This document shows positions 4,294 through 28,608 of a DNA stretch of 53,915 nt, piece after piece. This DNA is from a virus, in the IMG/VR virus record IMGVR_UViG_3300035702_000343, positions 1-53,915 of that record; one strand, written 5' to 3'. How positions within the stretch are numbered: the first letter of the stretch is position 1; each line of letters starts with the position of its first letter. Position numbers and translations under genes: made by a program. The notes beneath the pieces are model-generated. The model was given only the letters and a program-made list of their open reading frames with translations. It made no database searches and was not told the DNA's origin.

Positions 4294-5691
4294 TTAGTTT
4301 GTTGTTTCTTTTAAAAGAATTCCTGCAGGGATTGCTATTTTTTTGAATGTTTCAATTATCTCTGTGTCGGGGGAAAAGTTTACTGCGTTATTTAGATTAA
4401 CAGTTAATCTAGGTTCTTCTTCACTAGTTACTAATCCATTTATCTTAGTTGAGTCGGTATAATAGTCATCTACCGTAATACCCTCACACAACAGATCAAA
4501 TCTTTTTACTGAATTACCGTTAGAAAACACGTGTGTATTGCCTGAGCCTATGTCATACTCATAAACACTCTCCCCACTTACTGTTAGAAATTCATTAGTA
4601 ACGTCAGTTACAGTACCATCTTCATAAGCGAACGGGTAGTCCTGTGCAAATCCGTACAGTTTTTTGATATTGGACAATGTGGGAGCCTTTCTTAAGTGGT
4701 AAGAATATCCTCATGTTCAAAATCTTAAATGTTCAGCATACTTTATTCTTTTATCTTTATAGCTTAGCCCCGAAAATCCTTTAAGGTGTGGCTGATATTT
4801 TAAGTTTTCTAATAAGGTTATGGGGTTACTCTTTCCAAATATTTTAAAATAAAACTGATTTAAAATAGGGGACAGGGTTATGATTGTTTTTGCAGAGTAA
4901 TCATTGTACTTAATATTTCTACCTAAATCAGTTTTTAGAGTAACTTGTGAGGCATCTAACTTTAAGTAGGAAAGATCTTGGACACTGTACTCAGTTCCCT
5001 CAGTTAGAGTAGTTTCTGAAGACTCTTCTACAAGTTCCGGTACCGACATATGGATATAATCTCCCGGAAGCTTATACAAGTAGTAAGTCTCTGCGGTAGG
5101 AGCTGACTTTGGGCCTTCACTGCCATTGCTAAAGGATAAAGAATCGTCACTAAAACTTGTTGAGGCAGTGTTACCTAGTAACTTATGATTTTTTATAGAC
5201 CTTCCGTACACATTGTAAGAGTCTGCACCTGTTACAGCGTCTCAGCTCACAGATATTGCAGAAGTATCCGGGGACTCGGCCTCAGTCACATAAACCTCTT
5301 CAGAAGCTATACTCTCCCCCTTAGAATTCAATGCACTGATTCTATAAGAATATACACCGGTACCTACGTCTCCTTTCGTAACCGATACATTTTCAGGGCT
5401 CTCTAAGAATACCTTAGTTACATTAGTGAGGTCCCGCCCATCTGTATTTAAGTCGTGAGTAATTATCTTAAATTTCTGGTACAGTAGTTCATGTGCCCCC
5501 TTCATGAACTTAAAATACTGGATAAGATCACTCTGATAAAGAGAATAATAGGCGCCCTCAGTAGTTTTACTTTGAGCTTCCCAATAATTCTCAAACTTTC
5601 TTTTAGCTAACTCAGGTAGCGATTCAAAAAAAGTCCCTAAGAGTTTTCAAACTATATCGGGGTTTGTATCCGTATTAGATAGATTAAACAC
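4294..5691 (-). CDS. Baseplate-associated protein with FN3 domain
   Basis: The gene is 465 residues with in-frame TGA at 5647, 5242, 4717 and 4711. The junction at 5242 is one of the best proofs of recoding: it restores ISVSWDAVTGADSYNVYGR, the canonical start of an FN3 strand pair. I chose the GTG at 5691 as start because the N-terminal sequence FNLSNTDTNPDIVWKLLGTF is protein-like and the next ATG (5505) would drop it. The GTG overlaps the end of the J-like gene by 8 bases, which suggests translational coupling. It may be the next wedge/arm component outward from the J-like protein. The role is inferred from position. Confidence 0.6.
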
Positions 5692-8600
5692 GTGTTACTC
5701 CTATTAATGTTTCTGTATCTGCATAGAACCTGGAAACATCACCAGTGGGCAATGTGTAGGTGTCAGAGTCTAGCGTGTAAGTTGTGTTAGACCCGTCTGA
5801 CTTATATTGTTTTACTTTTATTGCGATGTTCGTAGATACATTAGTTGCTCCTGCTGTATACAGGGTATTAATTAAGTCACTTTTTTGCAGCTCTCCATCC
5901 TCAATAGAGTTGATGTAATTCACTAATCTCCGCTTAGCGATGGCTAGGTCTAAACTCCCTGAATACTCTAAAGAAGTTATACTAACTACAGCTGGTGGCA
6001 TTGCCTTCTCTTTTATAGATACTGCAGGATATCTATTTTCTGGGGAGTTTAAGTATGTGTTAATACCCGGCCCTGAATCTCATGCTCTATAAATGACTGT
6101 TATAGATGTACCATCTGCTTCATCTGAAAAAGCTACTTTATACTCGTTGTCAGGACCAAAGGTTTCTCCCGGTTTATTATTAAAGATACTATACTCCGCG
6201 GTTGGATAAGCTATTTGGGAATTAGTTTCCCTAACTTCTAATATATCCTGTATATAGCCATCAGTCACTAAAATCTCTCCATTACTTATAGTATAAGTTG
6301 CGGATTTTTCCAGCATGTCTGTCGGTGCATGGCAATAAACATCTATTGAATTCCCTAAATGATACTTACCTGCATTCGGATTAGATAGTTGTATGTAATA
6401 ACTTTGTAGAGTATGATCTGTGTTATCTGAAAAAGTTGTTCCAAAATTGGCTGCAGAGGCTGCAACATAGATATAGTTACTGGCATCCATATAAGTATTT
6501 AGGGCACTAAGGGTGTCACTTATCTTTAAATTTTCAGGCGACTCTGCTATTGTTTTAGTGTGTGTCCCTAATAGTTCCCATTGAGATGCGGTGTCATTTC
6601 AAATAACTGCCTGTGTCCTACTGTTACCTGTATCATTGTCTGACGCGTACTGTTCTGGATCATATCCTACACCGTAATAATCTACACCAAAAGATGCACT
6701 CGCACTACTTCATTTAGAAGTGTCTATCTTAAACTTGAACATGTGCATAGGAAATATCTCTGCAATAGTTTTTACGTAAGTTCTTTTTACAGTTCACTCA
6801 TAACCTTTTGTTTGTCCTACGGCTATCCCAAAGTTACCCCGGGTTGAATCTAAACTATCTACATTTGAATTACCTGTATTTAAAGTCTCTCCCGCAGCCG
6901 GTACATAGTTTGGGAACGTGGCACCTTTGTTTAATATAAGATCATAAGTTTCTTGGGTACCTGGTCGCATTCAGACCTTTGTACCTAAATTTTCTTTTAT
7001 TTCGATCTTGAAATCATAATCTGTGTCCTTCTCTATCCAATATTTGGCTCTTTGTAAGTATTGGTTTATACCATTAGTAGCGTCAAAAATATTATTTACG
7101 CCAATTATTACTTCCTCATCCAGCGCATTGTTATCCACTAAGTATGTGTTATATAACCAATAAGCTTTGTTTGCCTCATCAGATATATTCCCAACTAGAT
7201 TTTCTTCTACTGGATCGGTTCCATTAAAAAAGCTTTTAAATTTTTCAATGTCCGCTTCTTTTTGGGCCGTATCAGAGCCGTAATCATCGGCATCTAAACG
7301 TAGTAAAAATGAGGGCTGTTTTCTTCAAGCGAGCCCGTATCCATCATGAGCCATAAATATAGTGTTATTTCTTAACACTGTGATGTAGCACATTTCACCC
7401 ATCTCAGAAGAATCCGTTGTTTGTATAGTCGTTTCAACGGAAACGCCGGTATGTTTATTTATAGGTTTGTGTAGTATTGGAGCTAGATTAGCTATTTGCT
7501 CCTCGCCTAATATACTTCTGAGAGTAATTACTGCACCGTCTAAAGAAAACTCCTGGTCAACTATTTCTCTTGAGTTTGCATCCTCTAACGTTTTTAACAC
7601 ACTGCTTAACTCATCGAAGGTAACATTGATTTGTTGTTCAGAGTCCTGCCCTGTGGGAGTTCTCCCCAAAACAACCGAACTTCCAGATAATCTTATCTCG
7701 TCTGGCCAGATCAAGAGGTTATCAGTCCTGGATCCATCATTTTTTAAAAACCCATTAAATCTTTCTTGGTTCCAGTTCTCTATGGTAATAAGTTGATACT
7801 GATCTTTCTCAGCTTTTAAGGCATCATTAAGCTTTCTAAGGCCTTTATATTGCTCATTGTTAAATTCCGTTTCTCATGCATTTATAGATGGAAAAACAAT
7901 GTTAGGGTTTTCACCACTAACAACGCTTTGAGAGAAATTGTCTACAAAGGCCTGATGCCCCTTTGAATATACTTCTGTAGCTTGTCCGCTGACTACATAT
8001 TCAAAGTTCTCTACGGTATTAGGAGTTAAAGAGTTATAAGAAAGAAGATCTCTGACCATCAAGGCATCTCCTGACCCAATTACTTTTACAGTCTCTATCG
8101 CTGAATCTTGGGCTTTTACGTTGGATTCAATGACTGACTCGCTAGCTAAAGTAGAGGTTTTTACTGAATTTAAAATTCTAGTATAATATTGAGAATTTGT
8201 CTCTCGAGCTGTTCCCCCACTAATGCTTGAAGATACCTCTATTCGTTGAGGGCTTGGAGATACCCCGTTTTTAGATTTTAAAATTGTTTTAGAGCTTAAA
8301 GCACCATCGGCGGTTTTACGAACACTTCTTATACTTATCTCAGCAGTTGAGTAGTAACCGTCCACATCATAAGTTTGGCTCATCGCAAATTTAGTCCCGG
8401 TATACTTATTTATAGTCTCATATTCGTACCCGGTATCCTCGAAATAAAAAGTAGTATTAACAGGAAGATTTAAAGACACTGGTTCACTAAAATACAATTT
8501 TATTTTACCCGTATGGTAGTCACCCTCAGTTCTAGTCACCAGAAAGTTAGCACCTATTGCATCCAATTCCTCTTCTGTAAGCTTTGTGGGATCTTTTATA

Positions 8601-8761
8601 GTTAAATTATTAACAATCCGATTATGTTCAGATTGGTAATTTGAAAAAAGAGTTGAAACCGGACTTATAAAAAGATCTCTAAAATTAGAACCTTCTCCAA
8701 GGTCTATTTCTGGATCCAGCTCTGCTATTTGTTTAATTAATAAGTTTGTTAAGTCTACCAT
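5684..8761 (-). CDS. Baseplate J-like wedge protein
   Basis: This gene is 1025 residues after reading seven TGA codons (7874, 7325, 6971, 6794, 6710, 6599, 6080) as Trp. The first 290 residues follow the baseplate J / T4 gp6 / Mu gp47 pattern: a short helical start (VDLTNLLIKQIAELDPEIDL), GSNFRDLF, LTEEELDAIGANFLVTRTEG, then beta-rich segments and GGTARETNSQYYTRI. The C-terminal 100 residues (SLDLAIAKRRLVNYINSIEDGELQKSDL) also resemble the end of J-type proteins. A roughly 650-residue insertion sits between them, so it is much longer than a typical J protein (about 300-400). It follows the gp25-like gene, the usual order for wedge genes. Confidence 0.8.
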
Positions 8762-8762
8762 T

Positions 8763-9188
8763 TTATGTTACCGAAAATTTGTTTGTTACACCGTCTTCTG
8801 TTATGACCTCTATCTGAACTATTCAAGCCCCGTAAGCTACGTCCAAGTCTACTTCAATTAAGTTTAGGGCCCTTAGTCTTTCTTGTTTCCTCAGAGATCT
8901 ATCTAGAATTTGTTTTTGTTTTATCTTTTCTTCTATGTTTTTTAGCAGTACAGGAAAAGCTTCTTTAACTTGTTGTTCTTGGCTAAAATCTATAGCTCTA
9001 AACAAGTTATAAAAATTTTCTCCGAATTCAGGGCTAAACTGGTTGCTGCCCTTTGCAGTTAAAATTCTTTTGACTATATCTTGTACTAATTTGTCCCTCC
9101 CAGAAAGCGTACCATTTTTTGGGCTTCAATTAAATGTAAACTCTTTTGTTGAAGAATCAAAGTCTATTAGTCTAACATCTTTTTTCAT
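8763..9188 (-). CDS. gp25-like baseplate wedge protein
   Basis: This 141-residue protein starts at ATG 9188 and ends at TAA 8763. Two TGA codons encode Trp21 and Trp122. It fits the GPW/gp25 family in size and layout: an N-terminal strand, GRDKLVQDIVKRILTAKGSNQFSPEFGENFYNL (the family's limit-of-GEN-like part), a long charged helix, and a C-terminal beta hairpin. Members connect wedge proteins to the hub and seed sheath assembly. The ATG overlaps the stop of the upstream gene (TAATG), and the J-like gene starts immediately downstream. Confidence 0.8.
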
Positions 9189-11293
9189 TAACTAGGTCCT
9201 AAGTTTAGCATGGCTCCAATTATCTCTTTTTTGTTTTTAAGTCTGTTTATTGACTGCTCGCTTTTTCTTGTAAATTTCTTAGCCTTTTCAGGATCTAAAC
9301 CTATTACTTCGGCAAGCCTTACAGAGTCCTCAGAAACCTCCTGAGACTCTTTTGATTTACAAGCTAAAAATTCTGTAATATCATCAGAAAGAGCTAATCC
9401 GGCTTGTATCCCATTTAACAGTTTGCTGAGATCTCCTCTTAAAAGCTGATCCGCTAAATCACCTGAAAGTGGAGAGAATCCTAAAGAGTTTATAAATGCT
9501 TCCCAAGCAGGTTTTATAACTGAATTAAAAAGAGGGTTGGTATCAACGCTTCTTATAAAAGCTTCACACTTTAATCTCTCTTGCTCGTCTCGATCTCTCT
9601 GCGTCTTTAATAAAAGTCTTATACTTTGTAAAGCTGCGATGGTTCTTCTTCTTACGTCAGGACTAACAACTAAAAATGGGGTTGCTCCTAAAACTTGTAA
9701 TTTACTTTCTGAAATTTCTGCGATCAAATCACTTTCACGGGGAACCTCTTCAAATTCTCCTGGGCTAGTTTCTTTAACCGTTCTATTTAATATATAAGTT
9801 CTTAGCTCCTCATACAAGTCTAAAGACCTGTCAAATTTATTTCCTATCTGCTCTGCTGTGGCAGTTGTACCACTACCAAACAGAATTGGACTTTCCCCTG
9901 AGGAATTTGCCAAGGTTTTAGCTATATTTAATTTAACTATCCATTCAATTTTACTCTCTCCTAAGTCTGCTTTTCCACTTACTCCAGAAAACTCCCCTCT
10001 CCTACTTAATACATCCTCCATACCACTGTCTACGTCTTTTAGTTTAGATACTGCTGGTCCTAAAAATGTCCTTAATATCCCAGTTTCATATCCGACTGTT
10101 TCTATCCATTGGTCCATTAGGAGTACGGAAGTTTCTTGTACTTTTACTATCCTACTTTCCGTAGCGTGGTTAATATCTTTTGAAGAGTACTTTGCGACAG
10201 TTTGTGCGTCCTCGAGTTCTAGATAATCAAAGACCGAATCTATAGAGCTTTTAATGTTGTCTGTAATACTGGCCATCTTTCCACCCTTTAACCTAGATAA
10301 GTTAGATTGTATTACTTTTGAGTCTTTTAAAATAACACTTTGTATAGGAAGGTGCCTACCTATACTATGTATGTATTTTTTAGTAAACCTGGAAGTTGAG
10401 TATTTTATAAAAAAGTCATTCACTCCGGGCGTGCCAATAAAGGCTAAAAGATATTCTTTTATTTTTCGCTTCCCTTCATCTGTTACCCCTCCCGTATCAT
10501 TGATATACTTGTCTTTTAATATACTTACAGAGTTCTTGAAGTATTCTACTATTCCTAATGGGTGCGGGATTTGAGCAGAATCGGTTACCTTGTTTGTTGG
10601 TATTAAAGGTAAACCGTATCGTCGATTGAGTCTATTTAGCTCCTTTTGGAAATCAGGACTTAAGAGCTGGTCACCTGCTAATTTTCTAAGCGCCTCATCT
10701 ATTTCGTAAACGGCGCTGTCTAGGGAGTTTTGGTTTATACTGCCTGATCCTGTTCGGTATCAAGCTGCATTCTCTATTTTTGAATATTCAGCACCTAACA
10801 ATCTTAATGCTGCTTTAACGTTTTGATGTGCACTTGTTACATCATTTAGAAGAACGTCCTGACTATTTGAATCTACCTCTTGTAGAGACTGCAACATGTC
10901 TAAAAGTTCCTCGATGTCAAATAATAGGTTATTTGCTAATTTTTCCCTTCTCTCCAAAACCTCTTTGAGTGCTTTAGCAGCTAAATACTTTAACATAATT
11001 TGAAACCCGGCAACCATATTTAAGGCCAAGCCTACGGAAGCAAGCAAACCACCTACAATATTACCTACAACAGCGGATAGCAAAAAGGAGGATAAGTTAG
11101 TTGCTAGGGCAGCAGTAAGCTGTCCCATTAAAGCAAATAGAGTAACTATAAAAGGCCCAAAGCTTTGATTAGCTAGATCTTTTATGGTATCTTCAATCTC
11201 TTCTTCAAATTCGTCTAGTATTTTCTTGACCGCTTCCGATAAGCTTTGTGGCTCGCAAGGGTCTGCGTTAAGAAGGTTTAATAAATTAGCCAT
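9188..11293 (-). CDS. Virion/baseplate protein with hydrophobic segment, unknown family
   Basis: The gene is 701 residues, with TGA at 10760 read as Trp. Residues about 45-105 are strongly hydrophobic (FIVTLFALMGQLTAAL, FLLSAVVGNIVGGLLASVGL), enough for two membrane-type helices; this is followed by long charged helices (LKEVLERREKLANNLL) and a mostly helical remainder. It sits between the sigma-like gene and the gp25-like wedge gene in the tail operon. Such hydrophobic stretches in a virion operon could insert in the host membrane at infection or be buried in the baseplate; this is inference. No family recognised. Confidence 0.55.
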
Positions 11294-11296
11294 TTA

Positions 11297-12016
11297 TTAT
11301 AATAAGTCCTTTATCTCTTTGGATAGAGCTACCTTTCTTTTACGTAGTTCTGTCTCTGTTAGGTTTAACTTTTGTTTGATTTCTTTTGCTGTTATTTTGG
11401 GCGTTCCCCCCATTCCAAAGGTATATTCTAATATCTTTTTATCTACGGGACTTGCATCAAAGTATGCAAACTGCAGAGCTTCTTTTAGCTTCGGGTCTGT
11501 TGTGTCAGGCTGTATATAAAAAGAAAAGCCACCTTCATCAGGGTCAGTAGACGGTATTTCCATGTGAAGATCTTTTCTCTGTTCACTTTGTATCCTCTCT
11601 ACTTCTGCCTGGGAGATATGCATGGCGTCAGCCAATTCTTCTACAGTGGGTTCTCGACCTTTCTCTGTCTCTAAGTTAGCAAAAATTGTTTTATACTTTC
11701 CTAACATAATTACTCGAGGTTCGGGAATATACCCTACGTTTTGATTCTCAGCAGTGAAACGATACAGCTTTTGTAAGTAATTTGTAACGTGCGTATTTAT
11801 CTGTGTACCTTTGTTAGGATCATAAGTGTCTAAGGCTTTAGACGCTAACCGCTTACCCTCTAACTCTAGAGCTTCGTAAGGGAGACCGCTAGCCTTGTAC
11901 TTACCTACTTGTCCCCGTATAAGGGGTGTGAGAGATTTAATTAATTTTTTCTTAGCCCCTTTGTCCCCTTCTTGTAATTCTTTATATAGTTCAAACTCGT
12001 CTTCTTTTCTTCCCAT
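11297..12016 (-). CDS. Sigma-70 family factor embedded in tail operon
   Basis: This 239-residue protein has sigma-70 architecture. Residues 10-95 resemble region 2 (ELQEGDKGAKKKLIKSLTPLIRGQV, ALDTYDPNKGTQINTHVTNYLQKLYRF). Region 3 follows at about 97-145 (YIPEPRVIMLGKY, REPTVEELADAMHISQAEV). A C-terminal helix-turn-helix like region 4 follows (ITAKEIKQKLNLTETELRKRKVAL). Sequence similarity to region 2.4 of primary sigmas is weak, which suggests altered -10 specificity. Location inside a late structural operon suggests it is made late, possibly to sustain or switch virion-gene transcription. It is distinct from the RpoD-like factor at 25900. The sigma call is good; the target promoters are unknown. 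Confidence 0.75.
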   Translation of the reverse strand: MGRKEDEFELYKELQEGDKGAKKKLIKSLTPLIRGQVGKYKASGLPYEALELEGKRLASKALDTYDPNKGTQINTHVTNYLQKLYRFTAENQNVGYIPEPRVIMLGKYKTIFANLETEKGREPTVEELADAMHISQAEVERIQSEQRKDLHMEIPSTDPDEGGFSFYIQPDTTDPKLKEALQFAYFDASPVDKKILEYTFGMGGTPKITAKEIKQKLNLTETELRKRKVALSKEIKDLL

Positions 12017-12017
12017 C

Positions 12018-13142
12018 TTAAATAGTTATTTGTTGTTTAATGTTTTGCAGAGTATTCCTAATCTTTATGGCTAAAGATAGGAAATTTGCTACGGTATTAA
12101 AAGACTCATTTGTCTTAAACATGTTGTCAGCCGCCCCATTAGTCACCTCTTTAAGGGTAGACTCTGAAAACTTACTTAGGATAAAAGTAGTCTCCGTACT
12201 TTGGTTTTTCTCTCCAGATATAAAGTCAGCAAAATTATTTATTCTTTCACTCACATCTTGCTTAAACTCGTTTAGAGAAGATTCGTCGTCCCCATAAAAA
12301 TTTCTAATCAATGTGTTAAAATCTGTTATTCCAATACCACTGTAGTTGACTACCCTCTCAGCTATGTTGAATTTTAAAGTCGAGCCAGTGGTTATGAAGG
12401 ATGTAAAAATATCCAGATCCGTTATTAAATTCTCTTCAAAAGCATTTAAATAGGATTGTATATTTGACAGCCTTTCAGCATCTTCTTCTGAAAGTGTTAT
12501 ATTCTCTACACTGTAATTTTTTTCTAAATCATCAGAATCAAATAGGCCTGGTAAATTTTGTGTATGTCTAGCGATGACCCAAGACATTTCAAAAAACCCT
12601 AACTTATCATTGTTTGCGTTGTAGTTAACATTGAAGTTAAGGGGATACCCGTATACTAAATGATTGGCTATTTTCATTACCGCGATATTACCGGCCTTAA
12701 CAAGCTCTGTGGCTCTCATATGTCTGTTATATAGCTGGGTTATAGAGCTTTGCTGCATACCTCGTGAAGGGTTTTTAGACTTTGGCCAGTCTACTGCTTT
12801 CCCTGCGAATCTATATACTCGGGCTGTTTGTCCAAAAAACGATACATTAGTACTTCCCAGTGTTTCTTGTATCTGTGCTTTCTCTTGGAAAGACATGTTA
12901 AAGTTAGACAAGAAGAAAAAGTTTGTAATGTATTTTATTTCACTACTATCTCCTGCGTCTAATATCATTAGTGTTGCACCAGCAGGTATAGATGAGTGGT
13001 TAATATACTCCTCTAAATCTTCGGGTGCTGATTTTGACGAAGATATAGGAAATAATTCTGACCCAAATCCAGAAAACCCAGCGGCTGCGCTTAGGGGATC
13101 ATTTCAGTTAAATGCTGGTGAGGAGTCTTCAAATTGTGACAT
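12018..13142 (-). CDS. Tail/baseplate structural protein, unknown family
   Basis: The gene is 374 residues. It starts at ATG 13142, where it overlaps the hub gene stop (TAATG), and has one TGA (13104) as Trp13. The N-terminal 60 residues are low-complexity and Ser/Pro-rich. The segment GNIAVMKIANHLVYGYPLNF with the aromatic run after it resembles beta-rich peripheral tail proteins, and the C-terminal half is helical. Its place directly after the hub gene suggests a hub-proximal or tail-adaptor role. I do not recognise a named family. Confidence 0.5.
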
Positions 13143-15781
13143 TAGTTTAATAGGGTTAGATTATCGTTTCCTAGAGCATCATTTGTTCTTAACTCTTTTA
13201 ATAAGGCATCTCTTACTTGTTTTCTGAACGCTAAGTTGACGTGAGCTCTTCTCGTTAAATTATAAGGTTTGAAAGCTTCTTTATCAAATTGAATGACAAA
13301 GTCAACAGTGCCAGAATCCTGGGTAGCGGATCCTAATTCTTTCCTGAGATCTTCTAATTCTTTAGAAAGCTCCTCAAACTTTTCCTGCGCCTCGATGAGC
13401 GCATTATAGGCATTTTCTCTTAAAGCTAGCTCATTTGGTTTCCCTAATGATAGTAATGTGTTAGTATATTTTCTATCATCAAAAAGGGCCTCAGCTTCAA
13501 GTATAGACTGTTTATAAGAATTTACTTCTTGTTGAAGCTTTACCTCCCGCCGTCTCATCTCTTCTTGGTCTCCGTTATCAATTATTTTCTGCGTAGTTCT
13601 GCCTTGCGCCTCCAATATTGAATCTCTTATTTTAAGACCCGCCTCAGTCCCTCTAAAAATAGAAATAGCATCTTTATAGTTTGATTTATTATCTATGTCG
13701 GATGCAGTGTCTATACCAATTGATGCAAAATAGTCTGCCTTACTTATTATAGATCTTGAAGTCTGGGAATTTATAAAGTCTTTTAGTGCGCTGCCTTCTT
13801 TAGGTATTTCATTATAAATACCTATGTACTTATAAATTGCCTCGTAAATATCCCGAGTATAGGCTCCACTATTTCTTAAATTGTTACCGGTTTCAGGAGA
13901 TAAGTCTGTGGCTATCCTGTTTTGTATATCACCACTGTCGTCACGTAAAATGTCTAAAATACTGTCATATGTGTCTACAAATTGTTCCTGCTTCTCCATC
14001 TTTTCCAGAGCATCAACGCCCTTAGAGAAAGCTTGCTCGTCTTCTGCGTATTGTTTAAAAATACTACCCTTCGAAGATAGCGTCCCTCTGCGTAAATATG
14101 GGTACAAGGTCTTGCCAATCTCTCTAAAGTCATATACGCTTTGGTCAAAAAGATATGAGTTTATGTCAGTATAAGGATCCAAAGTGAAGTCGTTGATAGC
14201 GTCTTCAAAATCTTCTTCTGTAATATCTTTTAGATCGTGCACTGTTCTTACTGCCCTCATTGTTATGGATGTCGAGGCGTAGCCTTGTGAAGAGACTGAG
14301 AGCGTTTTTGCTGCTATAACCCCTGTAAAGGATGGGCCCTTGTCCGGTTCAATGTAAGCTCCGGGTAACCCTACCATTGAGTAAGGAGTATATACTGCGC
14401 TTATAGACATATTTCTGGTGGCCATTCTAGCCTGTTGGTGAGCATTTAAAGTAAGTTCATTTAAAGGTTTTTTTATCTTGGATTGGTATTCCTCTTTTTG
14501 TGCCTCCTCTAAAGATTTAGTCTCTCCTATAATATCTTGTTTTTCCGTTTCTACAAAAAAGGAAGTTTGATTAACTACATTAGGTGTTATTCCACGGTAT
14601 GTTTCCTCTGAAGTTAATCCAATAGTGTTTTGGTCTATACCGTCCTGTGTAATATTTAGTTTAGGCTGTACAGCAAACGGTTTAAACCCTTTTGTAGAGC
14701 CAATGATACCACTTTGCATAACGCTGTGTACCTCACTGATGGTTCTTGTAGGCTCCGATAAAAAATTTCTTGAAAAGTTTATTTTACTAACTTGTTGTGG
14801 AAAAAGTAAATTACATTTTATAGGAGGAGAGTTTTCCATGTTAGGTAAAAAATATCCTCTTATGGGCGCTGATCTTTCTACATTCCCAGATTGAAATTGA
14901 AGAGATCCTGTATAAGTAGAAGGAGCTACTAAAGTATAGTGAAACACATTTAAGAACTCTACCACGGCCTCCATGAGTTTAATTGTCCCACCGTTTTTAA
15001 GAGAGAACTTAGATTCGGAAAGAGTGAAAAAATTCTCTATCAAAGCTTTTCTTTTAAAGGCTTCAATTTTTCCTATGTTGGGGGATGTAAAAATAGATTC
15101 TCTTATATTGAAGGAGTTCGAAACAAGTCCATAAAACATATCATACTCTTCAAACTTTTTAAGGAAGAAATCTATAAAAAGTTCTAGATCTCCTCCGCTT
15201 ATTTTATCATCACCTATTAATTTACTAATTTCATCTACTAACCCACTAAAAACTGTAAGCTTTGGCTCTCCCAGAGAATCATACTTCTCAATAGGATCTT
15301 CCTCTTCTCCTGCTTTTGTCTTATCTTGAAAATTAGAGTTGGTTTCCGGGGTGTCATTTTCTAGCTCCTTTTCTGTACTATTATAGTACTCGTATAAATA
15401 GTCACCCAGAGCATCTCCCCACTCCGCTGTCACCATAGAATCTTTTGGTCGCGCAGTCACTGATTGCCACTGAGATAATAAGGACGTAGCTTCAAATGAT
15501 ACCGCCCTCGAGGATCCTGTCTTACTATAGTTTATTTGTCTTATTTCTCCCTCGAATAATAAAATTTTATTAGCTGTGTTCTCTGGCTCGGGCCCAAATA
15601 TCTGAACTATGGTACCACCTAATACTCTTAAGCTACCGCTGTTGGCGGGGAATTGTACAGTCGCAGAGGGGAAGTCTCCCTCAATCTCCCTAATATTAAA
15701 TGAGGAAAAGGGAACTTGTATTCCCTCTAAGTAAACTTCAAATCCTGTATATTCTTGAAACGTTGTTTGTGTGTCTGACAT
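13142..15781 (-). CDS. Baseplate hub protein (gpD/gp27-like)
   Basis: This 879-residue protein is encoded without any TGA codon, although Trp is present as TGG. The N-terminal 110 residues match the first beta barrel of late-control-D / gp27-type hub proteins: FEVYLEGIQVPFSSFNIREI, PSATVQFP, VQIFGPEP, LLFEGEIRQINYSKT, FEATSLLSQW. It is larger than minimal hubs (about 350-400 residues) because of a mid-protein extension and a C-terminal coiled-coil (LIEAQEKFEELSKELEDLRKEL). It follows the tape-measure gene with 8 bases between, the usual order. The hub joins the tail tube tip to the wedges. Confidence 0.65.
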   Translation of the reverse strand: MSDTQTTFQEYTGFEVYLEGIQVPFSSFNIREIEGDFPSATVQFPANSGSLRVLGGTIVQIFGPEPENTANKILLFEGEIRQINYSKTGSSRAVSFEATSLLSQWQSVTARPKDSMVTAEWGDALGDYLYEYYNSTEKELENDTPETNSNFQDKTKAGEEEDPIEKYDSLGEPKLTVFSGLVDEISKLIGDDKISGGDLELFIDFFLKKFEEYDMFYGLVSNSFNIRESIFTSPNIGKIEAFKRKALIENFFTLSESKFSLKNGGTIKLMEAVVEFLNVFHYTLVAPSTYTGSLQFQSGNVERSAPIRGYFLPNMENSPPIKCNLLFPQQVSKINFSRNFLSEPTRTISEVHSVMQSGIIGSTKGFKPFAVQPKLNITQDGIDQNTIGLTSEETYRGITPNVVNQTSFFVETEKQDIIGETKSLEEAQKEEYQSKIKKPLNELTLNAHQQARMATRNMSISAVYTPYSMVGLPGAYIEPDKGPSFTGVIAAKTLSVSSQGYASTSITMRAVRTVHDLKDITEEDFEDAINDFTLDPYTDINSYLFDQSVYDFREIGKTLYPYLRRGTLSSKGSIFKQYAEDEQAFSKGVDALEKMEKQEQFVDTYDSILDILRDDSGDIQNRIATDLSPETGNNLRNSGAYTRDIYEAIYKYIGIYNEIPKEGSALKDFINSQTSRSIISKADYFASIGIDTASDIDNKSNYKDAISIFRGTEAGLKIRDSILEAQGRTTQKIIDNGDQEEMRRREVKLQQEVNSYKQSILEAEALFDDRKYTNTLLSLGKPNELALRENAYNALIEAQEKFEELSKELEDLRKELGSATQDSGTVDFVIQFDKEAFKPYNLTRRAHVNLAFRKQVRDALLKELRTNDALGNDNLTLLN

Positions 15782-15789
15782 TTATTTTA

Positions 15790-18700
15790 TTATCTTGCTG
15801 GGTTTTTTTCTGCATCTACTACTCTGATTGCATTTCCGCCATTTATTGTTGCGAAGGCGCTATCTAACCTATCCATTACACTTTCTACGCCCCTTTGTTG
15901 CATACTAAAAAATTTCTGAAGATGTTCTGAGGCACCCTCCCATTTCAGGTTTGACATAATATGAGATCCTTGAACCTTACCAACACTTTCGCTTACAGCT
16001 TCCATTAATTCTCCGATTTCCATAGATCCTTTAATTCTGCCCTCTAACTTGTTTCTGTCTAAACCGGCGGCCTCTAATTGATTTAGGACGTCGGACGGAT
16101 TACCTAAGACTCCCTCTATAGTTAAATCTTCACCTGAACCTATTTTTGCTAGCTGTGATAATTTTTTATAAGCAAAGCTTTCTAATCCTACATCGGTGGG
16201 GACTGCAAATCCTAACTGGTTGGCAAGTTCTCTTGATTGTTGCGTAATGTTTGCCTCTAATTGGTATGCACCACCTGCTCCATATAACGCTGCTGCGGAC
16301 GCAACGCGGTCTCCGTGATGTCTGGATATAAACCTGGCGATATCTCTATCTTGTGCGTTACTTAGTTGCGAAACATCTATTGCTCCTGATCTCGTTATTT
16401 GCTCGGTTAACACTCTCTGTCCCTGTTCAGTTAGACTACCAATTCTACTTTGGGCAGCCCCTTCAAGCAATAATCCGCTAACGTTTCCTAAAGCAGTTTC
16501 CTGTAAATCTGCTCCATGACTAGTCATGCGTTCCGCGGTCATACCTGATTCAGCTAATGACCTCCCCCTAGAGATGACTTCAAGCTCCCTTTGGTCCATC
16601 CCCATTACACCATCTTTAGCCATCTGGTTGAGTACAGCACTTTGTATGCTAGAATCTACGTTCTCAAAAGCTCCTCCAACCATTTGGCTTACTTCCGTAT
16701 CTATTAGAGTTTCAATTTGATCTCTAGGGACTCCTTTAGCACTTAACTCTTCCCGTCTTTTTTGATAATGCATAGTTAGTGCAAAATCATCTCTGGTGCT
16801 TTGCACTGATCCGCCAGAAAATGTATCTGATCCTAATCTCTCTGCTAGAAGTGCATCTCCTTTTGTGATTGCACTTTTGTCAAAACCTCTAGCGAATTCA
16901 AACTTATTTCTGAAGGTATTAAAATCACCCTCCCCATAAGTTCCGCTCTGTCTTAATTGATCAAAAACAGTTTTGGCTTCTATTTTTGCAGAATCTCCAA
17001 AATCAAATCCCGTCCCCATAGCTTCGAAACCTTTTGAGCCTCTTATTCTTTCTAGAGCTGCTCTTACTGTTGCTGGTTGTCTATCTATGCCCATTCGTAG
17101 GGTGTCGTTTTTTCTATCCATACGTCTTTCAAAATAGTCTGACGTACCATCTATAATATTCTCATATAAGTCTTCTGAAGCATCTACCCTCAGAAAATTA
17201 GCGGCACCTGCCCTCATTCTTCCGAACCAGGACACATCCTCGCTAGCCGCCATAGTGTCACTAATTTCTCTTGTGATCATTCCTATTTCTTGGCTCACAG
17301 CGTCATTTGCGCTCACGTCTTGTGCCATCGATATAAAACTTTGTGCTTGATTAGCGCTTACTCCATACATATTCATCATTGCGCTTGTTAAAACTTCTCT
17401 ATTAACTGTCCCGTCTCCGTTAGCTAGGTTTGTTTGTTTTACAAGCTCCATTGCATTCATAAATGGCATCGATTGTTGCATCTGCTCTGGCAATGAAGCC
17501 ACTAGCTGTGCTTGTTGAGCCGGTAGACTTATCATTCTTCTAGGGTCCCCGGAAAAATAATTTGAAGAAGCTCCTAACATATCTTGCATACTATCTCCTG
17601 GAATAGAGCCTCCTAAAAGCCCAGAGGTATATAGCATTCCTTGGCCACTCATCATAATTCTATTTGTGGCTTCCATATTAGAAAGAGCAAAAGACTGTGT
17701 TCCTCCCGCCTCGTGTATTAATTGTCTAGTCACGGGGTCAGCCATTTTTAAACGCTCGGCCTGCATTAAACTCTCTCTTGCCATATCAAAGGCGACATTA
17801 GACCCTACCCCTGTGCCTCTCATCATCTCTACACCCTGCATACCGAACTTGCTTACACCTACTGCTCCCAAACCTGTAACTTCTCCTTCGTAAGCTAGCT
17901 GGGTTCCTACGGTATCCATCTCTCGGGTAGTTGCTACCATTTCCTGCTGTAGTTGGGCCATTATTTGGGCAGCTTCACGTTGAGTAGATCCTATTTTATT
18001 TGCAAAATCTCTAGTGTTCTCAATCACTCCCTGCAATACCTGATCCATTTCCTCATAATTAGATACTCCAGAAAATCCACCTGCTTGTGCAAAATCAGCT
18101 ACGTTAGATTCTAAATACTCCATACTATACCCCTCGGAAAATCCTTCTGCGGAGTATGCTTTATCTTGTAGCCTGCCCGCCATACTTCTGGCGTCGTCTA
18201 TAGATAACTTCCCAAAACTATCACTAGCTATTCCCTTAAAAGCTCTGGCTAAAGATTCTCGTTCCTTTGCCTGTCTTGCCGTTACTGCAAATCCGAGGTC
18301 AGCAAAAGCCCCCACTGTACTACCTATAACAGCTCCCCCGAATCCGCCTACTATTGCTCCGCCTACTGCTCCGGCCGCCATGAATCCGTTACTTGTTATA
18401 AAGTCTGAAGTCATATCCGACATATTAAGAGCTGCTTGGTCTCTATAGTCACTCATAAAAGCTCCAGCAGTGTTAGGGTCGTACCCTCTGTAGAAAGGAT
18501 TATATAGAGCGCTAGCTGATTGGAAAAAACCTTCTGGCCCTGTCGACATTGAGGGAGGCATAGATGATATACTTGGATCAATAGGTTGTGATATCAAACC
18601 TATTTTTCGCATATCCTGGTTAAATTTATTATAGCCTAATCTTAGATATTCTGCGCTACTATCTAAGAAAGAGGTGCCCCCAGACATCTGATCAACAGCA

Positions 18701-18918
18701 CTCCCTACGGGTGGTTGAGCAGGCATTTGAACACCTGGCATTCCGTTGAGTGCGGCTAAAGCCTGTCCAGAAATTACATCAGAGGCTTGTGGGATTCCGT
18801 CTTGGGAGTAAGCCAGAGATCCCATAGTTAAGTCAATTTGTTGCCTTATACGCTCTAATTGTTGCGAAAGGTCTTCTTCGTTTAGTCTAACGTTGTACTT
18901 AACTTCTTGTTCTGCCAT
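15790..18918 (-). CDS. Tail tape measure protein
   Basis: The protein is 1042 residues, mostly helical, with a Gly/Ala-rich hydrophobic stretch near residues 180-210 (GAVGGAIVGGFGGAVIGSTV) of the kind found in tape measure proteins. It lies directly downstream of the frameshifted tail-chaperone pair and upstream of the hub, the conserved place for this gene. No TGA codon is used in over 3 kb. Tape measures set tail length and pass into the host envelope on infection. By the usual 1.5 angstrom per residue rule a tail of about 150 nm would be expected; that number is inference. The start overlaps the chaperone ORF by about 20 bases. Confidence 0.75.
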   Translation of the reverse strand: MAEQEVKYNVRLNEEDLSQQLERIRQQIDLTMGSLAYSQDGIPQASDVISGQALAALNGMPGVQMPAQPPVGSAVDQMSGGTSFLDSSAEYLRLGYNKFNQDMRKIGLISQPIDPSISSMPPSMSTGPEGFFQSASALYNPFYRGYDPNTAGAFMSDYRDQAALNMSDMTSDFITSNGFMAAGAVGGAIVGGFGGAVIGSTVGAFADLGFAVTARQAKERESLARAFKGIASDSFGKLSIDDARSMAGRLQDKAYSAEGFSEGYSMEYLESNVADFAQAGGFSGVSNYEEMDQVLQGVIENTRDFANKIGSTQREAAQIMAQLQQEMVATTREMDTVGTQLAYEGEVTGLGAVGVSKFGMQGVEMMRGTGVGSNVAFDMARESLMQAERLKMADPVTRQLIHEAGGTQSFALSNMEATNRIMMSGQGMLYTSGLLGGSIPGDSMQDMLGASSNYFSGDPRRMISLPAQQAQLVASLPEQMQQSMPFMNAMELVKQTNLANGDGTVNREVLTSAMMNMYGVSANQAQSFISMAQDVSANDAVSQEIGMITREISDTMAASEDVSWFGRMRAGAANFLRVDASEDLYENIIDGTSDYFERRMDRKNDTLRMGIDRQPATVRAALERIRGSKGFEAMGTGFDFGDSAKIEAKTVFDQLRQSGTYGEGDFNTFRNKFEFARGFDKSAITKGDALLAERLGSDTFSGGSVQSTRDDFALTMHYQKRREELSAKGVPRDQIETLIDTEVSQMVGGAFENVDSSIQSAVLNQMAKDGVMGMDQRELEVISRGRSLAESGMTAERMTSHGADLQETALGNVSGLLLEGAAQSRIGSLTEQGQRVLTEQITRSGAIDVSQLSNAQDRDIARFISRHHGDRVASAAALYGAGGAYQLEANITQQSRELANQLGFAVPTDVGLESFAYKKLSQLAKIGSGEDLTIEGVLGNPSDVLNQLEAAGLDRNKLEGRIKGSMEIGELMEAVSESVGKVQGSHIMSNLKWEGASEHLQKFFSMQQRGVESVMDRLDSAFATINGGNAIRVVDAEKNPAR

Positions 18919-19821: not shown

Positions 19822-21198
19822 ATGATTAATATAGAGATAAAAAACACAGGAAAAATAAAGGGAATAAAGTCCCTACCAAGAGAGGTGGTAGAGAGTCTCA
19901 GAAATGAATTTACTATCACAAACCCAATGTTCTCAAAGAAAAAGGCATTGGATCTTAGTATATTTGGAACCCCACAATATTTGAATTACTATTCTTCTCC
20001 TGACCGGGACACTTTAGAGGTGCCTGTTGGAGGGGTTTCCAAAGCCATTGAAATTCTTTTAGCTTCTGGTGTGGGGCTTACAAAAGATGATATTATTGAC
20101 AACCGCACCACAGCTTACAATCCAGACTTTTTTGATAATGTTGAATTTCATGCTACTCTAAGAAGTTACCAACAAGACATGGAAGATGCTTGTATGAACA
20201 ATAATTCAGGCGTTATACAAGCAAAAACAGGTTCTGGGAAAACGGTGGTTTTCGTTTCTTACGTTGTAAAAAAGAAGCAAAACACTTTAATTTTAGTTAA
20301 TACAAAAGAGCTAGCTGCACAAACTGTGGAAGCTTTTGTTAAGTTTACTAACCTAGAAGAAGATGATATTGGATTCATAGGTTCTGGCCGGTATGAGCCT
20401 AAACCTATAACTGTTGGAATACTGCAATCTATTGTTCAGTTGAAAGGTAAAGAGCTTTCAGAAGTTCAGCAATACTATGGTCAGCTCATAACTGATGAGA
20501 CGCATATTATTGCCGCGGAGACTTATTATAATGCTGCTGCTCGACTACCATTTAAGCATAAATTTGGATTCAGTGCTACTCCTCAACGAGAGGACGGATT
20601 AACGCAGGTTATATTTTGGGCAACTGGTGATATTATCCATGTTGTTCCTGACAAAGCCCTAAAAGATTATTTAATTAAACCTACTTATAAAAAGATAAGA
20701 ACCAAATATTATTTCCCACTATTTGATACATCGGAATTTCAAGCGATGATAACTGACATTGGAAATAATGGTCCTAGAAATGAACTTATAAAAGATACAT
20801 TTTTAGAAATAGGGGACGACAGGCCTTCTGTATTCCTATGTGACAGGGTTGAACAGGTAGAACTATTACATGAGTTAATACCAAACTCTATTATGCTTAC
20901 CTCGGCCGTAAAAAAGAAGGATAGACCTAAAGCTATGGCCAAGTTAAGAAGCAAAGAAAAACTTCATGTTATTTCTACCTTCGGTTTATTTAGTACCGGG
21001 ATTGATGTCCCCCATTTGGAGGTGTTGTATTTATGCTCACCTAAAAAGTCATTTATAAAATTAAAGCAGGCTGCAGGTCGTTTGATGCGATTGGCAGACG
21101 GGAAGACTGAATCACTTATTGTTGACTTTGTTGATGAGGGGGTTTGGTTATTAGCTAATCAGTGGAAAACCAGACATAAAATTTTAACTAACTTATAA
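19822..21198 (+). CDS. SF2 DNA helicase (UvsW/DEAD-type)
   Basis: This 458-residue ATP-dependent helicase has motif I AKTGSGKT (134-141), motif II DETH (225-228), motif III SAT (251-253) and motif VI QAAGRLMR (about 420-428), with a TGIDVPHL motif V region before it. The two RecA-like lobes fill the protein after an N-terminal domain of about 110 residues. The layout matches T4 UvsW-type helicases that remodel recombination and replication forks. It is the first gene of the rightward module and is followed closely by recombination genes. All Trp codons are TGG. No Shine-Dalgarno sequence precedes the ATG. Confidence 0.85.
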   Translation: MINIEIKNTGKIKGIKSLPREVVESLRNEFTITNPMFSKKKALDLSIFGTPQYLNYYSSPDRDTLEVPVGGVSKAIEILLASGVGLTKDDIIDNRTTAYNPDFFDNVEFHATLRSYQQDMEDACMNNNSGVIQAKTGSGKTVVFVSYVVKKKQNTLILVNTKELAAQTVEAFVKFTNLEEDDIGFIGSGRYEPKPITVGILQSIVQLKGKELSEVQQYYGQLITDETHIIAAETYYNAAARLPFKHKFGFSATPQREDGLTQVIFWATGDIIHVVPDKALKDYLIKPTYKKIRTKYYFPLFDTSEFQAMITDIGNNGPRNELIKDTFLEIGDDRPSVFLCDRVEQVELLHELIPNSIMLTSAVKKKDRPKAMAKLRSKEKLHVISTFGLFSTGIDVPHLEVLYLCSPKKSFIKLKQAAGRLMRLADGKTESLIVDFVDEGVWLLANQWKTRHKILTNL

Positions 21199-22680: not shown

Positions 22681-23604
22681 ATGTCACTATTTCAAAAAGC
22701 AGAACCAGAAGCGCCTCGACTAAAAATGTACATCTACGGGGAGACGGGAACAGGTAAGACAGTTACCGCACTGAACTTTCCATCGCCGGCAGTTATTGAT
22801 GCCGAAGATGGTACTTTACATTATGGTAAAGAATTCGACTTTCACAAGATTAGAGCAAATGATCCAGCAGTTATTCACCAAGCTCTTGACGAGCTTTTGC
22901 AAGACCCTGGAGATTTTAAAACTCTAGTCATTGATCCTATGAGTGTTGTTTATGATCAAATCATTCGCATCAAAGAGGATCGTATGAAAGCCAGAACTGG
23001 TAACATGAACTACGAGCTACAGCCTCTTGATTACAAGAGTGTTAAAACAGAAGTAAAAATTCTTATGAATAAACTACTGGCTCTAGACATGAATGTTATC
23101 GTTACAGCCAGAAGTAAACCTCTGTACGCAGAGGGAGAGTTCATGAAGAAAATTGGACAACAGCCTGATGGACACAAAAACATGCCTTACATGTTTGACG
23201 TTGTTCTTGAGCTTTACATCGCAGAAGATGGAGAGACTCGTATGGCCAAGGTAACAAAAGATCGGACCAATACACTTCCTCATGAGTTTATATTTTCTTA
23301 TGACTCATTCGTAGAATACATGGGACTTGATGTCCTTGAACGAGACGCTGATGCAGCTAAACAAAAGGAATCTATTAATACAACCAATAAGCGTACCAAG
23401 CAAATCGAATATAATAACGAGCAGATTTTTACAGCCGGTATAACCGCTGATACTCTGTCAGAGCTTGAAAAGCTATTGGAAGACGTAGACCCTAAACAGT
23501 TAAAAGAGATTTTGATGGAGCAGTTTGAAGTCGATAATCTACTAGATTTGACAAAGAAGAATTCTGAGTCATTTTTAGACGCTGTGAAAAACGAGCTGAC
23601 GTAA
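22681..23604 (+). CDS. RecA-like ATPase (Sak4/AAA_24 type recombinase)
   Basis: This 307-residue P-loop ATPase has Walker A GETGTGKT (20-27), an acidic VIDAEDGT strand shortly after, and Walker B TLVIDPM (81-87). The compact core followed by a C-terminal helical tail matches phage Sak4-type proteins, shortened RecA/Rad51 relatives that promote single-strand annealing with an SSB partner. The next gene is a DUF669-type ssDNA-binding candidate, the usual partner, which strengthens the call. All Trp positions avoid TGA. No Shine-Dalgarno sequence is seen. Confidence 0.75.
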   Translation: MSLFQKAEPEAPRLKMYIYGETGTGKTVTALNFPSPAVIDAEDGTLHYGKEFDFHKIRANDPAVIHQALDELLQDPGDFKTLVIDPMSVVYDQIIRIKEDRMKARTGNMNYELQPLDYKSVKTEVKILMNKLLALDMNVIVTARSKPLYAEGEFMKKIGQQPDGHKNMPYMFDVVLELYIAEDGETRMAKVTKDRTNTLPHEFIFSYDSFVEYMGLDVLERDADAAKQKESINTTNKRTKQIEYNNEQIFTAGITADTLSELEKLLEDVDPKQLKEILMEQFEVDNLLDLTKKNSESFLDAVKNELT

Positions 23605-25858: not shown

Positions 25859-25899
25859 TAATTTTCCAATTTACATTAAGATTCACTATATTAAACGTT

Positions 25900-26700
25900 A
25901 TGATTAGCAAATATATTAAAGACATAAAAAAGCATGACCCTATTCCTACTCGAGAAGAAGAAATAGAGTTATTTAAAAAAGCAAGGGCCGGAGAACGATG
26001 AGCCTATGAAAAGTTAATAAATTCAAATCTTAGATTTGTTTTTCAAGTCGCAAAATATTATCAGGGAAAGGGATTACCTCTTGAGGATTTAATTGCGGAG
26101 GGTAATATGGGGTTATTAAAAGCTTACGAGCGTTTTGATCTGGAAGTTGGTGTTAAGTTTATTTCTTACGCCGTATTCTGGATAAAACAGAGTATACTTA
26201 GTGCACTGTATTCACACTCAAACACGATTAGAATACCCCTTAACAAACTTATAAATGTTTCTAAAATAGCAAAAATAAAAAAAGAGTTAGAACAACAACT
26301 ATTACGTGAACCAACTCTATCCGAATTACAAGACTATATAGAAGATCCTTCCCTTAAAGATGATGTTCATCACTTACATACTATAATAAGTTTGGACGTG
26401 CCAAGAACAGAAATGGGTGAAGCGGATCTACATGAAGTTTTAGCCAGGGATGATGAGAACTTAGAGAAAAAACTAGAAGAGTTCAGAGAAGAATTTTTAG
26501 ATGTAATTTCAAATTTCCCAAAAAGGGAGAAAAAAATACTCTGTATGTATTATGGAATAAGATATACCAGAACATATAATCTGCGGGAGATTGGCCTAGA
26601 ACTTGATTTGACAAGAGAGAGAATCAGGCAAATAAAGGACCAGAGTTTAAATAAATTAAGAGAGAAGCCGGAAGGCAAAAAATTGATAGAATACTTATAA
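25900..26700 (+). CDS. RpoD-like sigma factor
   Basis: This 266-residue primary-type sigma starts at ATG 25900, with one TGA (25999) read as Trp34. Regions 1.2-2 are clear: YIKDIKKHDPIPTREEEIELF, then LINSNLRFVFQVAKYYQGKG, LEDLIAEGNMGLLKAYERFD, VKFISYAVFWIKQSIL. Regions 3-4 follow (IRIPLNKLINVSKI, REPTLSEL, LREIGLELDLTRERIRQIKDQSLNKLR). The region 2-3 wording is very close to the Bacteroidota RpoD, in both length and motif choice, which supports the host inference. It should redirect host RNA polymerase to phage promoters, possibly the extended -10 elements. The UGA at codon 34 makes full-length protein depend on UGA decoding. Confidence 0.9.
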
Positions 26701-28608
26701 ATGGAAAACATTAAATATATTGATGCTCCTAGCAAGGTAGACGATGCTCTTACAGAGCTACATGGATACCCTGAGCTAGGTTTCGATACAGAGACTACAG
26801 GCCTTGATCCCTTAACGGACAAGGTTTTGTTGTTACAGGTAGGTACGCCTACTGTACAGTTTGTGTTTAATGTTCACGAAATTGGACATGAAAACACAAT
26901 GCGGGTATTACACCTACTAAAACAATCAGAAGTAACAAAGGTGGCACATAATGCTAAATTTGATTACACTATGATCAAGAGTAACTACGGTGTAGATTTA
27001 CCAAACATAATTTGTACTATGATTGGATCTATGTTACTTACAAAGGGGATTGTTTCGGCAGACAATAGCTTAGATGGTTGCCTTACTAAATATCTAGGTA
27101 TGAAGATGAATAAGGCCAAACAGAAATCATTCATCGACATGAAGGTTGGAGACTCTTTTACATGGTCCCAAATCCTATATGCTGCCAAAGACGTTGAAAT
27201 GATTATACCTCTGAAAAATAAGATTGTAGATCTTTTAAACGAAAGAGGTATGAAACAATTGTCTGAGCTTGAGTTTGAAACTGTTCGGGTTTGTGGCGAT
27301 ATGCAACTTAACGGGATTTACTTAGACGGTAAAAAGTGGTTAGCATTACTTGATGATGCGAAGGCCATGTCTAAGAAAGCAAAAGCTGAGCTAGATGAAC
27401 ATGTAAAAGATCACGCTCAGTTGGACATCTTTGGGGTTCCTACTGTCAACTATGCTTCACCCCTCCAATTAAAGCCGCTGATCGAAAAGATTACAGGGAA
27501 AGCATTGGAGAGCACTGGAGTAAGAGACTTAGAAAGAATTGATCATCCTATGGTAAAAAGTCTTTTAAATTTTAGAGAGGCTCATAAAAAGGTAACAACT
27601 TACGGTGCCTCATTTCTTCAAAAGCATGTTCATAAAAAGACTAAAAGAGTTCATTCTAACTTTAAGCAGCTAGGAACTGATTCGGGACGTATGTCCTCCT
27701 CAAGCCCTAACATGCAAAATATACCAAGTGCTCAGAAGTATAGAAGCTGTTTCACTAATCAGAAGCCCGGTTATAAAATAATAAGTGCTGATTTTTCAGG
27801 TCAGGAGCTTAGACTGTTAGCACACATTTCTCAAGAACAGGCTTTTATAAAAGCCTTGAACGAGAACAAAGATTTACACTCTTATAGCGCATCATTAATT
27901 TTCGGTGTACCTTACGAGGACTTCTTTTATTATGGTAAGGATGGCATAAGAGAGGCATGTGATGATAACGACAGTTTAGATCCTTTTGAACTATCTTTAG
28001 ATTCGAATCAAAATGATATGGTTGTAGATAATGTAGGTGATCCTCTTATTCGTCCTGAGATGAAGAAAAAGTATAGGACACCTTGTAAGAGTATTACATT
28101 TGGTCTTATCTACGGTATGGGAGCTAGTAAGCTAGCTGATACATTAAAGATAACAATTGCAGAGGCTAAAGAACTTATAGGGAAGTATTTTGATACATTC
28201 CCTACTATTAGGGATCTTTTGGATAGACTAACACAAGAGGCAATGGCTCGTAAGTACGCGTATTCCCCGCTAGACGGACGCCGTCGTATCTTTAGTGGTA
28301 TAGACTGGGACCATGGCGGTAAGGTCGCTCACATGAAAAATATAGCAAAAAATCAACCCTTCCAAGGCGCGGGTGCATCAGTAACCAAGTTAGCGCTTTG
28401 CAGAATGAAACACAGAATAGATTCTACTGGTTGGGATGCTAAGATTATAAATGTAGTACATGATGAGATTCTTATAGAGGTTTTAGAGGAGCAAGCAGAA
28501 GAAGTTGCAAAAGCCCTTGAAGAAATTATGAAAGAATCATTTAATTTTTATGCACCAGACATTCCAATGGTAGCAAAAGCAGAAATAGCAAACGAATGGA
28601 GACACTAA
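26701..28608 (+). CDS. polA: DNA polymerase I (family A)
   Basis: This 635-residue polymerase starts immediately after the sigma stop. An N-terminal 3'-5' exonuclease domain is present (FDTETTGLD at 28, AHNAKFDYTM, YAAKDVEMI), without a 5' nuclease domain. Polymerase motifs are A DFSGQELR (364-371), B KSITFGLIYG (463-472) and C VVHDE (585-589). An insertion of about 45 acidic residues (roughly 410-455) lies between motifs A and B. It is the probable replicative polymerase, coexpressed with the sigma factor. All Trp codons are TGG. Confidence 0.95.
   Translation: MENIKYIDAPSKVDDALTELHGYPELGFDTETTGLDPLTDKVLLLQVGTPTVQFVFNVHEIGHENTMRVLHLLKQSEVTKVAHNAKFDYTMIKSNYGVDLPNIICTMIGSMLLTKGIVSADNSLDGCLTKYLGMKMNKAKQKSFIDMKVGDSFTWSQILYAAKDVEMIIPLKNKIVDLLNERGMKQLSELEFETVRVCGDMQLNGIYLDGKKWLALLDDAKAMSKKAKAELDEHVKDHAQLDIFGVPTVNYASPLQLKPLIEKITGKALESTGVRDLERIDHPMVKSLLNFREAHKKVTTYGASFLQKHVHKKTKRVHSNFKQLGTDSGRMSSSSPNMQNIPSAQKYRSCFTNQKPGYKIISADFSGQELRLLAHISQEQAFIKALNENKDLHSYSASLIFGVPYEDFFYYGKDGIREACDDNDSLDPFELSLDSNQNDMVVDNVGDPLIRPEMKKKYRTPCKSITFGLIYGMGASKLADTLKITIAEAKELIGKYFDTFPTIRDLLDRLTQEAMARKYAYSPLDGRRRIFSGIDWDHGGKVAHMKNIAKNQPFQGAGASVTKLALCRMKHRIDSTGWDAKIINVVHDEILIEVLEEQAEEVAKALEEIMKESFNFYAPDIPMVAKAEIANEWRH

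Follow-up and report, generated by a model that had tools for sequence, protein, structure and literature searches.

The window analysed here, a viral record of 53,915 bases, carries on its minus strand a tail operon that includes a gene for a sigma-like protein (Table 1). The ORF has an ATG start and a TAA stop; it lies one nucleotide beyond the stop codon that precedes it, and 3 nt separate its end from the start of the following ORF. An earlier reading, made from the sequence only, had placed the gene between two tail genes, and the annotation bears this out, with g879 and g374 upstream and sheath-initiator-like and Baseplate_J genes downstream. Between 19.8 and 34.9 kb the plus strand carries replication-type genes, for a helicase, an exonuclease, an AAA protein, a second sigma, PolA, parts of a ribonucleotide reductase and NAD kinase, together with tRNA-Lys. 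At 29594-31301, a fragment of a class II ribonucleotide reductase gene precedes a gene for a GIY-YIG homing-type nuclease.

Under the standard code, TGA interrupts the second sigma and many structural genes. When TGA was taken as a sense codon, the tail operon resolved into long, closely packed ORFs with TAA or TAG stops, and in 15 TGA columns aligned with standard-code homologues, Trp made up 26 of 45 residues and Phe/Tyr 10 of 45. Because Trp predominates in these homologues and sense TGA yields the long ORF chain, the window phage reads TGA as Trp, which also explains why an in-frame TGA breaks the second sigma ORF when the standard code is applied. In-frame TGA codons were many in the minus-strand structural genes (window 1768-53868) and very few on the early side (one in the second sigma). 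The same reassignment is common to the relatives G002, G006, G041 and G042, and other sigma-family members do not have it; in locus L011, no long ORF in a 20-kb stretch terminates at TGA.

Table 1. Genes and promoter-like elements of the window.
Feature	Position	Strand	Evidence or remarks
Baseplate J-like protein	5684-8761	-	1025 aa, 7 internal TGA; Pfam PF04865 5e-6; PHROG 6
Sheath-initiator (gp25-like) protein	8763-9188	-	Pfam PF10934 4e-4; PHROG 975 baseplate
g701, tail-operon protein	9188-11293	-	directly downstream of sigma; one internal TGA
Tail-operon sigma factor	11297-12016	-	239 aa; PHROG, Pfam, phmmer, AlphaFold, Foldseek
g374, tail-operon protein	12018-13142	-	upstream of sigma, 1 nt gap to sigma start; 374 aa with TGA=Trp
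g879, hub-type tail protein	13142-15781	-	family includes Arash gp8 (phage lysozyme domain)
g1042, structural protein	15790-18918	-	family includes Arash gp4 (in virion)
Element GGTATAAGAA	19777-19786	+	before helicase gene 19822-21198
Element GGTATAAGAA	22616-22625	+	before AAA-domain gene 22681-23604
Second sigma, canonical RpoD-like	25897-26700	+	267 aa with TGA=Trp; directly upstream of polA; Pfam r1.2, r2, r3, r4
Family A DNA polymerase (polA)	26701-28608	+	early-side gene; Pfam 9e-84
Element GGTATAAGAA	32255-32264	+	after 31270-32250, before 32475-32834
Element GGTATAAGAA	33442-33451	+	before 33508-33930
Element GGTATAAGAA	34964-34973	+	downstream of tRNA-Lys gene
Sheath	37621-39225	-	recognisable with TGA=Trp
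Capsid	42988-43890	-	recognisable with TGA=Trp
Terminase	49040-50602	-	recognisable with TGA=Trp

Two sigma factors in one phage

The tail-operon protein matched PHROG 351 'RNA polymerase sigma factor' (1e-18, residues 4-238), aligned to RpoD/SigA chains in phmmer (2e-13, residues 18-228) and gave a Pfam match to Sigma70_r3 (6e-9). AlphaFold, run with 31 family members, produced a model with a mean pLDDT of 86 and a low pTM of 0.46 that leaves the domain packing uncertain, and the leading Foldseek matches of this model were all sigma subunits of bacterial holoenzymes (SigA/RpoS/RpoD; E 3e-10). These results confirmed, by profile similarity over regions 2 to 4, that the gene product belongs to the sigma-70 family, as the sequence-only reading had claimed. 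That reading had looked to profile searches for regions 2 and 4 in particular; whole-protein profiles do cover both, but region-level Pfam support was uneven. Region 2 was not reported by Pfam alone, the Pfam 'region 4' match (residues 120-144) falls within region 3, and the C-terminal HTH gave only a weak match to HTH_11. The assignment of sigma2 and sigma4 rests on whole-protein profiles, pairwise alignment and the predicted fold.

The family is divergent in the regions that bind promoter and core. The canonical aromatics of region 2.3/2.4 and the core-binding DLIQEG motif are absent from it, with THVxN...R...QN in place of TYAxWWIRQ, and in region 2.2 the DLIQEG aspartate is replaced by A, V or L, whereas the second sigma retains the canonical motif. 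These canonical features are typical of group 1-2 sigmas and not of every sigma-70 member. Sigma-70 factors direct a core polymerase to initiate at specific promoters, and the tail-operon protein may do likewise.

The second sigma beside polA is a separate RpoD-like protein, as previously noted. Second sigmas of this kind vary: those of Salmonella phage Arash and the window are unlike in domain make-up, and a second region-2-type sigma passed Pfam in many, not all, of the genomes with the polymerase and the tail-operon sigma.

Co-inheritance of the tail-operon sigma and a phage RNA polymerase

Profile searches found 60 loci of the tail-operon sigma family in IMG/VR, together with Arash and three Vibrio phages. 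The carriers are uncultured phages of 140-210 kb and these four isolates, and the 44 non-redundant loci span a GC content of 33-67%. The gene lies between hub-type genes and the sheath-initiator and baseplate-J genes in about 40 of the 44, and this conserved gene order supports the earlier proposal that the sigma is made with structural proteins. An alignment of the family held 59 sequences. Residues that are invariant and specific to the family cluster in region 2.3-2.4 (T75, H76 and R86), with P67 and P123 also invariant. When genome contigs were searched with a 5-row sigma alignment, ten loci were found, only one of them close. A family member (33%) was seen on an 81-kb contig (L354) of the isolate genome of Desulfovibrio sp. 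An276, and another contig of the same genome (C89) carries a baseplate-J gene of this family; together they hint at a host for one subclade.

Records that carry this sigma and reach 138 kb or more nearly always encode an RNA polymerase as well: beta and beta' were found in 26 of 27. The sigma locus of the exception, G003, matches that of the polymerase-bearing G002, and the G003 record is probably incomplete. In an independent test of the converse, all 15 contigs of at least 163 kb that were picked by beta' alone carried the sigma, while none of six control phages (T4, RB49, phiKZ, AR9, RHph_TM30 and YerA41) did. A baseplate-J gene lay within about 10 kb of the sigma on the same strand in 11 of these 15 contigs; in the other four it was 18-60 kb distant or encoded on the opposite strand, and the sigma was kept. 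The sigma therefore tracks the polymerase more tightly than it tracks the tail operon.

At the sensitivity used, each genome had one polymerase set. In Arash, Gp206 and Gp216 were identified as beta and beta' by Pfam and phmmer (Rpb2_6, 3e-56; Rpb1_5, 9e-16). The beta' clamp region, which is the sigma2 docking site in bacteria, is recognisable and divergent in this phage. The closest complete relatives of the window (G001, G002, G006 and G007) encode a single fused beta-beta' protein of about 2,020-2,060 aa. No polymerase gene was found in the 54-kb window fragment; by comparison with these relatives, the window phage presumably has one. Interruptions split beta and the N-terminal portion of beta' in five other genomes (G029, G035, G022, G031 and G033); G029 has insertions of up to 3 kb, and G033 and G035 each have an in-frame TAA.

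Virion proteins of Salmonella phage Arash

Arash (OQ632216; PMC10585845) encodes a 31% identical orthologue of the tail-operon sigma, Gp10, in the same slot of its baseplate operon, and differs from the window in using the standard genetic code and in having beta and beta' on two genes. The published description lists Gp10 as RpoS and does not connect it with promoters, a lineage or a packaged holoenzyme (PMC10585845). In the same work, Gp10 was detected in sucrose-gradient virions with 100% coverage and 24 unique peptides, along with beta (Gp206, 128 unique peptides) and beta' (Gp216, 40 unique peptides), and the other Arash sigma, Gp196, is missing from the virion mass spectrometry table. 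The sequence-only reading had suggested that the sigma might be packaged in the virion, and the presence of the orthologue, and not of the second Arash sigma, in purified virions favours this idea. The mass spectrometry comes from one distant relative, with a sigma 31% identical to that of the window; by analogy, the window phage would also package its sigma and inject it.

The Arash authors noted that enzymes in their virion preparations could be carry-over, the spectra were searched against phage proteins only, and enzymes are numerous in the table, some of them identified by just 2 unique peptides (PMC10585845). Spectra per residue were dropped as a measure of stoichiometry, and unique peptides were used instead, because proteins with 2 unique peptides also give hundreds of spectra. 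Per residue, unique peptides numbered 0.10 for Gp10, 0.10 for the major capsid protein, 0.08 for beta, 0.07 for beta', 0.04 for the hub and 0.002 for DNA primase, the last of which is likely a contaminant.

These data bear on the idea of a late sigma, similar to T4 gp55, that serves late genes and whose presence in virions is carry-over or incidental. Its place in a late operon and the many enzymes in the Arash data, including those with 2 unique peptides, fit this idea, but Gp10 has the peptide density of the major capsid protein and Gp196 went undetected. Moreover, the promoter-like element described below is on the strand opposite the structural genes, with none before the tail operon in the window, and the T4 late promoter sequence TATAAATA was not enriched (0-3 upstream regions per genome). 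We consider a purely late role unlikely. T4 gp55 is, like the protein studied here, a small phage-encoded sigma that redirects transcription; it acts at TATAAATA late promoters with host polymerase, whereas here the candidate site is an early-side GGTATAAG and the sigma is a virion protein. T4 gp55 also depends on gp33 and the sliding clamp, and neither of these is annotated in Arash.

A sigma-derived protein could also serve as a structural part that tethers the packaged polymerase or caps a part of the tail and reads no promoters. The constant position of the gene, flanked by baseplate hub and sheath initiator genes in about 40 non-redundant loci, and the detection of the orthologue in virions are in line with such a use, but region 2.3/2.4 is the most conserved part of the protein (T75, H76, V77, R86 and Q92), as promoter reading predicts, and the four polymerase-picked contigs with a distant or opposite-strand baseplate-J gene retain the sigma all the same. 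We regard a solely structural use as very improbable.

Two further Arash genes were noted. The tail operon has a second gene of polymerase origin, that of the virion protein gp7 (L003 7425-8105), which has a domain like the zinc-binding region of the phage's own beta' (gp216 residues about 222-312); short matches of this type were seen in about ten related genomes. An SNF2-type helicase, gp217 (L068 17261-18679), adjoins beta' and was found in virions with 38 unique peptides; it is possibly a RapA-like partner of the packaged polymerase.

A promoter-like element and the proposed use of the two sigmas

An unsupervised k-mer search upstream of genes picked out a promoter-like element, (T)GGTATAAG(A/T)A, that is strand-specific and occurs in most of these genomes, mainly before early-type genes; 'early' is inferred here from gene content. 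It was among the top upstream 8-mers in Arash (core TGGTATAAGTAA), D69 (TGTTATAAG) and G006, G002 and G007 (GGTATAAGAA), and was later found in G014, G026 and G009 and, as TGGAATAAGA, in G001. The window offered too few upstream regions for a k-mer search of its own, and the element was recognised there after the relatives: five exact copies of GGTATAAGAA were present where 0.21 were expected, and every one was on the plus strand. Counts by strand (+/-), made with a reversed-pattern control, were 5/0 in the window, 0/15 in G002, 1/14 in G006, 18/0 in G026, 1/20 in Arash, 0/41 in G029, 0/30 in G035 and 33/1 in G033, and the six control phages named above had 0-1. In nine genomes, each 86-92% coding, about two thirds of the sites on the early strand nevertheless fell between genes. 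The element and the tail operon do not occupy opposite strands in every genome, G013 being an exception. The element was not found in several distant members with sigma and polymerase (G016, G032, G038, G040 and G050-G052), and among the papers listed by a literature search none had described it as a phage promoter.

In sequence, the element resembles an extended -10 (TGG TATAAG); it carries a G at -7 and has no shared -35. Host sigma-70 prefers T at -7. The element and the tail-operon sigma are common to Arash, D69 and the window clade, and in G001 the -12 base is relaxed, yet the second sigma of that genome keeps the canonical WIRQ motif. We infer that the tail-operon sigma, rather than the second sigma or the host sigma, probably reads the element. 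A correlate was sought at residue 83, the position of sigma70 Q437. The prediction set beforehand, which paired H83 with A at -12, did not hold in G009. In a looser pattern, K/Q/R83 accompanied T-12, and G/H83 accompanied non-T in 4 of 5 genomes (Fisher 7e-4). This association was drawn up post hoc and is uncorrected for phylogeny; when examined last, G043 fitted the loose pattern and not a G83-only rule. A second promoter-like class, TTG-N17-TATATTTAA, was observed in upstream regions of G006, G002 and G007 (TTGACA in G007). It is similar to the sigma-70 promoters of hosts and may be served by the second sigma; in the window it was not significant.

The earlier reading had assumed host RNA polymerase as the partner of the sigma. 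In such a scheme, the injected sigma would redirect the host enzyme to GGTATAAG promoters and the phage polymerase would work with something else. The sigma2-3-4 layout is recognisable, like that of host sigmas, and known jumbo-phage polymerases operate without a recognisable sigma. Yet the tail-operon sigma and phage beta/beta' co-occur in both directions and are packaged together in Arash, its region 2.2 has lost the aspartate of the core-binding motif that the second sigma keeps, and the element is nearly constant across phages of different hosts. The host enzyme is thus a doubtful partner, and the phage polymerase is the likelier one.

Taken together, we favour, at a probability of roughly 0.7, a model in which a late-made sigma, packaged in the virion with the phage polymerase, starts early transcription from (T)GGTATAAG(A/T)A and the second sigma serves later promoters. 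The tail-operon sigma would be made late together with the baseplate proteins, enter the virion with the phage-encoded multisubunit RNA polymerase and be delivered with the DNA, where it would at once start transcription of early and replication genes at the extended -10-like sites. The second sigma beside polA would be made during infection from the early side and take over for later promoters, which would be the kind of cascade that the earlier reading had suggested. Both the phage enzyme as core partner and this temporal order are proposed rather than observed. The earlier suggestion that the sigma acts at the next infection is consistent with these results, if indirectly, because the phage polymerase is co-packaged and co-inherited with it and the element lies mainly before early-type genes, in the window on the other strand. 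The broader proposal, that this lineage ships a complete sigma-70-type holoenzyme (its own beta-beta' and sigma), switches sigmas on one polymerase where phiKZ switches polymerases, and uses one early element across unrelated hosts, we hold at even odds.

In phiKZ and AR9 (Chimalliviridae, AR9-like), as in the model proposed here, a multisubunit phage polymerase is packaged and injected for early transcription. Those phages carry two sets of polymerase genes, and no sigma can be recognised in them by sequence, a pattern that was not seen here, where each genome has one set, always with the tail-operon sigma and usually with two sigmas in all. Their Gp68 and Gp226 are structural or functional sigma analogues that belong to the non-virion enzyme. 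The mReC phages (Weinheimer and Aylward, 2020; PMC7481178) are Caudoviricetes with recognisable beta and beta', mostly metagenomic, as are the relatives of the window, and sigma is not mentioned in that paper. A further mark of the mReC lineage is a deep-branching position in the polymerase tree. The capsids do not support equating the two lineages: mReC capsids match PF07068 and neither the window's nor the Arash capsid does, so identity with the mReC lineage is not established. Reviews (PMC7598289; PMC7824862; PMC13282480, 2026) describe polymerase-encoding jumbo phages as having no recognisable sigma homologues.

A lineage with a bona fide sigma, a near-bacterial polymerase, a short conserved promoter-like element and the isolate Arash makes the question of how virion polymerases find early promoters testable. 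If true, the model would provide a one-polymerase, two-sigma alternative to the two-polymerase phiKZ model, and the combination of sigma, beta/beta' and GGTATAAG offers a simple signature for recognising such phages in metagenomes.
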